Part shown: positions 51,652 through 55,625 of the stretch, one piece after another
Layout of the letters: each line of letters starts with the position of its first letter
How positions within the stretch are numbered: position 1 is the first letter of the stretch
NCBI GenBank assembly: GCA_030041455.1
Contig: JASHNV010000058.1
Span: 1-64,000, forward strand
Origin: Spirochaetia bacterium
GTDB taxonomy: Bacteria; Spirochaetota; Spirochaetia; DAHUYW01
Length of the DNA stretch: 64,000 nucleotides
Direction: 5' to 3'
The notes under the pieces: generated by a model
Told to the model about the DNA's origin: nothing
Databases searched by the model: none
What the model saw: the letters and a program-made list of their open reading frames with translations, nothing else
Program-made: the position numbers and the translations under genes

Positions 51652-53640
<1,989 letters not shown>

Positions 53641-53696: not shown

Positions 53697-54167
53697 ATGA
53701 CAAACGAGCACGGACATGGCGGGGCGCTCGGCGCTCCGCCCGGATCGAGGAGGGACGTGAGACACGGCACGTCTCGGACGGGTGGCCTGAGGCGCGGAGC
53801 GCTCTTCGCGCTCGCGCTCGCCGCGGGGTCGCTCGCGCTCGCCTCGTGCGGCAAGCGCGAGGCCGAGCAGATCAAGCTTCCGGCGACCCCGATCCTGAGC
53901 GCGGAGGAGCAGTGGGGCGTCGTGAACTACGACCACCTCCGCATCCGGGACCACGGCTCCCTCGACGGCAAGGCGCTCCTCACGATTCGCAAAGGGGACG
54001 AGGTCGAGGTCCTCAACCGGGCGCCCGACCTCGTCGCGATCGACGACGTGCAGGGCTACTGGTACTACGTCAATTATCGGGGGCTCCGCGGCTGGGTGTT
54101 CGGCGCCTACCTGGACCTCTACGACTCGAAGCAGAAGGCGGACGACGCGGCGAAGGGGACCGACTGA
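53697..54167 (+). CDS. SH3-domain lipoprotein
   Basis: Lipobox LALASCG; NYDHLRIRDHGSLDGKALLTIRKGDEVEVLNRAPD...GYWYYVNYRGLRGWVFGAYLDLY. Confidence 0.8.
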   Translation: MTNEHGHGGALGAPPGSRRDVRHGTSRTGGLRRGALFALALAAGSLALASCGKREAEQIKLPATPILSAEEQWGVVNYDHLRIRDHGSLDGKALLTIRKGDEVEVLNRAPDLVAIDDVQGYWYYVNYRGLRGWVFGAYLDLYDSKQKADDAAKGTD

Positions 54168-55625
54168 ATGCTCGCCGGGCAGGGTCTTCTCTCCTTGCTT
54201 GCCCCGCCCGTCATCGGAGCCGCGCTCGGGTACTCCGCGAGCGCGCTCGCGCTCCGTCTCGCGCTGAGGCGAGGGCGCTCGGCGCCCGGGAAGCCGAGCG
54301 CCCTCGCCTCAGGACTCGGCGACCTCGTCGCCACCGAGCTCCTCACGACCGAGACGCTCGCCGCCGAGATCCGCTCGGAAGGCTTTCGCGAGCGAACCGT
54401 CTCCGCGGTCGAGGCGATCACCTCCGAGCTGCTGTCCCTTCGCGCCTCCGAGCTTTTCTCCCCCGAGGAGGAGATCCCCGCGGATGCCCCGGGCGCGCGC
54501 TCCGCCGCCCGCGAGCTCCTTTCCTCCGGGAGCGCCTCCTCGGCGCTCGGCGCCCTCGTTCGCGCGTGGGCGGGCGCGGTCTCGCGCATGCCGGTCGAGG
54601 AGCTCGTGCGAAGCGAGGGCGCGAGACGGCTCATCGAGGCGGCGGCGGCCGGCCTCGCTCAGGGGGCCTCCGGGAAGGAGCTTGAGCGCGCGGTGGGCCT
54701 CCTCCTCGACGCGCTCCTCGCCTCGGAGGAGGCCCGAGCCGACCTCTTCTCGGAGCCCGGAATCGAGGAGGCCGCGCGGACCCTCGATGCGATCTATCCG
54801 TCCGTCGTGGACTTCCTCATGGGATGGCTTCGCTCGAGCTCGACCCAGGCGGATCTCGTCGTTCGCGGCAGGCTCCTCGTGCGCGACATTCTCGACCGCC
54901 TGACCGCCCTCCAGCGGATCATCGTCTCGGCGGCGCAGTACGACCGGACCATCGACTCGAACATGCGCGGCATCGTACAGGAGGCCCTTGACCAAATCGA
55001 GGAGGGAGCGCGAGACTCACAGACGCAGGCCCGGCTCGTGGAGGCCGCCCGGCGGGAGCTGCGCTCCCTGCGCTCGAAGAGGGTGGGCGGGGAGGCGGAG
55101 GAGGGTCTGAAGCGCCTGGCCGCTCAGGCGGTATCCGGGGGCATCGCGGCGCTCCGCGGCCCCGAGGCTCGCGGCCGCCTGATCGAGAGTCTGACCGATC
55201 TCGTCGGGGGCGCGGCGGGAGAGACGGTCGGGGGGCTCGTCGAGCGGCTTTTCGGGCTGCAGGCGGGCGGGTTTCCCCGATTCGCCTCGGACCTAGTCTC
55301 CGGGGGCGCGGTGCCCGGCCTGCTCTCGCGCATGCCCGACGTCGCGATCGGGGCGCTTCTCGGGATCGAGGGAGAGCGCAAGCGGCGGATCGACCGCGCG
55401 ATCGCGGCGGCTCTCATCGGCGCGGCCGGCGCGATGGCGCCGGACCTTTTCGCGTCGGTCGACGTGCGCGCGACGGTCGTCTCGAAGATCGACGGGCTGA
55501 AGCCCGGCGAGCTCGAGGGCTTCATGCTCGGCGCCCTGAAGGGGTGGCTTGACGCCGCGGCGCTGTTCGGCGGAGCGCTCGGCTTTGTGATCGGAGCGGT
55601 CGCCGATCTCATCCATTTCCTGTGA
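54168..55625 (+). CDS. DUF445-like membrane protein
   Basis: N-terminal PPVIGAALGYSASALALRLALR, C-terminal hydrophobic FGGALGFVIGAVADLIHFL; long helical middle. Confidence 0.6.
   Translation: MLAGQGLLSLLAPPVIGAALGYSASALALRLALRRGRSAPGKPSALASGLGDLVATELLTTETLAAEIRSEGFRERTVSAVEAITSELLSLRASELFSPEEEIPADAPGARSAARELLSSGSASSALGALVRAWAGAVSRMPVEELVRSEGARRLIEAAAAGLAQGASGKELERAVGLLLDALLASEEARADLFSEPGIEEAARTLDAIYPSVVDFLMGWLRSSSTQADLVVRGRLLVRDILDRLTALQRIIVSAAQYDRTIDSNMRGIVQEALDQIEEGARDSQTQARLVEAARRELRSLRSKRVGGEAEEGLKRLAAQAVSGGIAALRGPEARGRLIESLTDLVGGAAGETVGGLVERLFGLQAGGFPRFASDLVSGGAVPGLLSRMPDVAIGALLGIEGERKRRIDRAIAAALIGAAGAMAPDLFASVDVRATVVSKIDGLKPGELEGFMLGALKGWLDAAALFGGALGFVIGAVADLIHFL
54262..54310. repeat. 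Perfect 20-bp inverted repeat with 9-nt loop, inside CDS
   Basis: CTGAGGCGAGGGCGCTCGGC-GCCCGGGAA-GCCGAGCGCCCTCGCCTCAG. Confidence 0.95.

Follow-up and report, generated by a model that had tools for sequence, protein, structure and literature searches.

Locus and host gene

The window, by which we mean the whole 64,000-nucleotide stretch analyzed here, belongs to a high-GC MAG (a draft of 199 contigs) and carries a perfect inverted repeat within the coding sequence of a DUF445-like membrane protein (Table 1). In a repeat search of the window, all 20 pairs of the two 20-nt arms are complementary (100%) across a 9-nt spacer, which confirms an earlier note on this DNA that had described a perfect inverted repeat, 20 bp long and closed by a 9-nt loop, inside coding sequence. 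The repeat is present at the place claimed, with the correction that the coordinates given there, 54262 to 54310, were shifted by 2 nt (actual 54264 to 54312). Its position within the DUF445-like gene, put at ~95 nt past the start, is likewise borne out, as the left arm sets in 96 nt past the A of the ATG. The repeat spans codons 33 to 49 of the ORF, with the in-frame product LRRGRSAPGKPSALASG, and the right arm includes L46, which is invariant in a seven-sequence alignment.

Table 1. Coordinates of the inverted repeat and neighboring genes in the window
Feature	Position	Strand	Remarks
uvrB	51652..53640	+	upstream of lipoprotein gene
Lipoprotein, SH3_3 domain	53757..54167	+	start 53757 is the gene caller's choice
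Host ORF, DUF445-like membrane protein, 485 aa	54168..55625	+	PF04286, E 1.2e-5, 25.8 bits
Left arm, CTGAGGCGAGGGCGCTCGGC	54264..54283	+	encodes LRRGRS(A)
Spacer, 9 nt, GCCCGGGAA	54284..54292	+	
Right arm, GCCGAGCGCCCTCGCCTCAG	54293..54312	+	encodes (K)PSALAS(G)

The host protein scores below the curated cut-off of PF04286 (25.8 versus 33.8 bits) and is thus divergent; its homology to longer family-like proteins is supported, and we therefore name it DUF445-like. The stop codon of the upstream lipoprotein gene directly adjoins the ATG of the DUF445-like ORF, an arrangement also observed in a congener (genome G001), which shares the gene order uvrB - lipoprotein - DUF445-like with the window.

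Repeat length relative to chance

No other perfect inverted repeat matches the length of the hairpin, whether in the window (runner-up, 14 bp), in a 0.80-Mb genome sample with noncoding DNA counted (runner-up, 17 bp), or in the coding DNA among 1.48 Mb of the source genome (runner-up, 18 bp). GC-rich coding DNA dominated by Ala, Leu, Arg, Gly, and Ser and built from few favored codons could become self-complementary by luck, and the composition of the gene (72% GC), with many CTCG/CGAG/GCGC words and weaker partial repeats near the hairpin, lends itself to such a coincidence. However, the longest arm in 1,000 synonymous-codon shuffles of the host ORF was 14 bp, all 20 pairs were never recovered in 300,000 random synonymous re-encodings of the 17 residues encoded there, and an arm of 20 was never attained in genome-scale shuffles. 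At the level of these shuffles, compositional coincidence is refuted, and we regard it as extremely improbable; the assertion that the repeat is unlikely to arise by chance holds on the same counts (shuffle maximum of 14 bp; 0/300,000).

Homologues at the hairpin site

DUF445-like homologues were found in 23 of the 60 genomes searched, the source genome included, with the nearest (40 to 41% identity) in the congener, the only one found. No homologue nearer than the congener was present among 395 genomes of the class, and of two contig scans for closer orthologues, the first confirmed no relative and the second gave three loci, including that of the known congener. The alignment of the protein with its family holds on either flank of the hairpin, which itself occupies the poorly conserved loop that follows the first membrane helix. 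With respect to the family loop LFRP...PFTPGIIPKQR..LA..IG, the left arm aligns to the LFRP part and the right arm lies over the R..LA part, and here the window protein is ~14 residues shorter than distant family members and ~8 residues shorter than the congener.

No comparable stem was observed at the hairpin site in 15 homologues, all distant, including that of the congener with the same gene order. The same loop of the congener holds a quasipalindrome of 9/10 pairs (one mismatch), a structure that arises there in 13.5% of shuffles. The DUF445-like protein at congener locus L093:14366-16087 additionally carries a GAASEA/GAAGEA-type tandem repeat insert of ~60 residues that is absent from the window protein.

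A perfect palindrome within coding sequence is also what a mobile or dispersed palindromic element (of the Rickettsia palindromic element or REP/MITE type) would leave after in-frame insertion, and the earlier note had proposed such an element, to be looked for as further copies of the 49-bp sequence and by its presence in orthologues. The search places the hairpin at a single site in the genome, with the match on both strands due only to its own symmetry; the other long coding repeats of the source genome share no motif. Furthermore, the protein is shorter rather than longer than its homologues at the site, and the hairpin is therefore not an insertion. Little credence is left for a mobile origin.

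Census of coding inverted repeats

Perfect inverted repeats were counted across 1.48 Mb of the source genome (1,100 genes called, 1.10 Mb coding) against synonymous-codon shuffles, and a codon-permutation null agrees with this null. Coding repeats exceed the shuffled expectation by a margin that grows with arm length, with 124 versus 42 at arms of at least 11, 30 versus 3.6 at arms of at least 13, and 5 versus 0.15 at arms of at least 16. For arms of at least 12, the excess peaks at spacers of 6 to 9 nt (21 observed versus 1.5 expected, 14-fold), is 6-fold at 10 to 15 nt (10 versus 1.7), and drops to 1.2- to 1.5-fold beyond 25 nt (5 versus 3.8, or 1.3-fold, at 25 to 40 nt). That long spacers show almost no excess serves as a control, internal to the data, on the shuffling. 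The 9-nt spacer of the window hairpin falls inside the peak, and the hairpin is the extreme member of the census set, with the longest arms.

The coding repeats are dispersed, occurring in 58 of 113 sampled stretches, and the excess is distributed along genes (25 versus 5.2 beyond nt 600) rather than limited to their 5' ends. Several of the longest repeats lie near ORF starts, and a class of 5'-end regulatory hairpins was considered on this account; it was dropped when better start calling and more sequence showed the excess along whole genes.

An artefact of sequencing, library preparation, or assembly, namely, a fold-back chimera fixed in the metagenome assembly, would also give a perfect repeat, and the source is a draft assembly in which the excess looks genome specific. 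Random fold-backs should mostly disrupt reading frames, though, whereas here the frame is kept, the protein can be aligned with its family to the left and right of the repeat, and long uninterrupted ORFs likewise contain many of the other long repeats. We consider an artefact improbable.

Further perfect coding inverted repeats with 14- to 16-bp arms and 6- to 8-nt spacers were observed at L081:10187-10226 and L067:2581-2614 and in the genes L127 4532-5288, L126 708-2391, and L151 4139-5585. Their sequences are unrelated; one, for example, sits right at the beginning of a GDPD-like gene and another within a PstC-like gene (both gene names being sequence-based judgments). In addition, the L142 gene 2735-4940 contains a perfect palindrome with 18-bp arms and no spacer (nt 419 to 454 of the gene) inside a 735-residue ORF.

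DNA-level versus RNA-level complementarity

A G.U pair is tolerated in mRNA stems, and selection on mRNA hairpins should therefore enrich stems with one G.U pair above those with one A.C mismatch. In the genome-wide coding census, 11-pair stems were enriched 4.5-fold when perfect, 1.54-fold with one G.U, 1.58-fold with one A.C, and 1.41-fold with other mismatches; the corresponding values for 12-pair stems were 7.7-, 1.71-, 1.82-, and 1.38-fold. Stems with one G.U are thus no more enriched than those with one A.C, indicating that complementarity is favored at the DNA level, a comparison that describes the genome-wide set and is not specific to the window hairpin. This genome-wide pattern points to a DNA process, quasipalindrome template switching, rather than to selection for RNA structure.

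The same comparison bears on a functional mRNA hairpin, which might slow ribosomes after translation of the first membrane helix or tune DUF445 relative to the upstream lipoprotein within an operon (polarity or attenuation). The predicted fold of the first 180 nt of the ORF is very stable and forms the full stem (-109.6 kcal/mol versus -85.5 +/- 4.7 for shuffled sequences, z = -5.1), the stem lies early in the ORF just past the first hydrophobic segment, and the direct contact of its start codon with the stop codon of the upstream gene is suggestive of translational coupling. Against such a function stand the 0/15 homologues with a comparable stem, the missing T-tract, and the enrichment of G.U stems, which genome-wide does not surpass that of A.C-mismatch stems. 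The stem conservation that would mark a conserved cis-regulatory RNA was not found among these homologues, whose distance makes this weak evidence. Among known RNA families (Rfam), only microRNA-precursor models matched, at 19 to 29 bits versus gathering scores of 70 to 168, as expected for any perfect hairpin. A regulatory role for the hairpin is possible but unsupported, and we judge the functional reading unlikely; the suggestion of an attenuator or processing site in the earlier note finds no backing in the homologues or in the coding stems genome-wide. A terminator for the upstream lipoprotein gene, suggested in the same place, fares no better. The hairpin resembles a Rho-independent terminator in being a GC-rich stem-loop downstream of a gene stop, but it lacks a T-tract, a search for terminator-like sites gave zero, and the stem sits 96 nt inside the abutting next ORF.

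Template switching as the probable origin

Taken together with the beyond-chance length of this short-spacer repeat, the genome excess that declines with spacer length and the exact complementarity without G.U preference over A.C (genome-wide) are the features expected of template switching. The hairpin is probably a replication scar of a quasipalindrome template switch, tolerated in a variable loop, and no dedicated element. In this scenario, the weakly constrained loop following the first membrane helix would have contained an imperfect inverted repeat at which the nascent strand stalled; on folding back (or after a strand switch), it would have copied from its own complementary arm, so that a single copying event would have made both arms exact reverse complements. 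The scar may have survived because the product kept the reading frame and encoded an acceptable polar loop. Copying perhaps ran from right to left, since it is the right arm that carries the conserved LA residues; codon usage gives no sign of which arm is the copy. We infer both the switching event itself and the lack of a function for the hairpin, and evidence gathered across the genome does not establish how any one repeat arose.

This reading is in line with work in E. coli, where template switching makes a quasipalindrome a more perfect repeat (PMC7202029), and in yeast coding genes, where it homogenizes the arms (PMC8604942); perfect hairpins can also arise in one template-switch event (PMC8794818). 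The window hairpin shares with such quasipalindrome mutations (the Ripley model, the E. coli lacZ QP reporters, and the yeast genes) a perfect, closely spaced coding inverted repeat with a short spacer, perfection at the DNA level, and an excess falling with spacer length. It differs in that the parental imperfect repeat is here a deduced one and in its arm of 20 bp, which is long by the standard of other coding repeats in the source genome. Work cited in PMC4060949 likewise attributes to template switching an excess of short repeats within coding sequence, and the excess described here is of the same kind with the same proposed cause; as given in that citation, the excess is small and concerns 6- to 9-bp repeats, whereas the source genome shows a 14-fold excess for arms of at least 12 bp at 6- to 9-nt spacers. 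Coding palindromes of Nematomorpha mitochondria are also perfect inverted repeats within genes with both arms coding, but these reach 284 bp, are mitochondrial, and encode conserved regions in both arms (PMC6649704), while the window hairpin has 20 bp, is bacterial, and lies in a poorly conserved loop.

Comparison with other genomes

Coding sequence from the congener (185 kb, of 0.24 Mb), Sinorhizobium pSymB (620 kb), and E. coli (206 kb) was sampled for comparison. The peak at 6- to 9-nt spacers is absent from all three samples, in which counts are small. For arms of at least 10 and spacers of 0 to 15 nt, summed observed/expected ratios are ~2.8 in the source genome, 1.4 in the congener, and 1.5 in pSymB, the last an imperfect control because its class tends to suppress palindromes (many alphaproteobacteria tend to avoid them; PMC4060949).

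SbcCD and ExoVII content was considered as the cause of the difference and rejected. SbcD and SbcC models did not pass their cut-offs in the source genome or the congener; both genomes have XseA. The congener, which shows no clear excess, thus has the same content as the affected genome (SbcCD weak or absent, XseA present), and this content therefore does not explain the difference. At L153:12764-16335 of the source genome, a metallophosphoesterase lies beside a Rad50/YhaN-like ATPase, a putative divergent Mre11/Rad50-like pair named from sequence only.

The congener has perfect 18-bp inverted repeats of its own, at L102:15368-15436 and L107:1953-2016, with 28- to 33-nt spacers. The L107 repeat, which contains AAAACGGCGTTTT, a sequence that recurs as the arm of L095:14459-14517, may represent a small dispersed element.

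A raised rate of template switching in the lineage of the source genome is possible. The fuller picture, of unusually high short-range template switching (or poor hairpin removal) by which hairpins build up in genes throughout the genome and alter protein loops by several residues at once, we put forward tentatively and with more doubt than conviction; a link to the lack of canonical SbcCD may exist.

Alone, the hairpin is a curiosity. Within the genome-wide set, it presents template switching as something that changes coding sequence in an uncultured lineage, and these data also supply a simple G.U-versus-A.C test by which a DNA-level origin can be told apart from selection acting on RNA structure. 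Should the rate prove to be raised, the lineage would offer a naturally occurring mutator for a process that until now has mostly been examined with engineered reporters.
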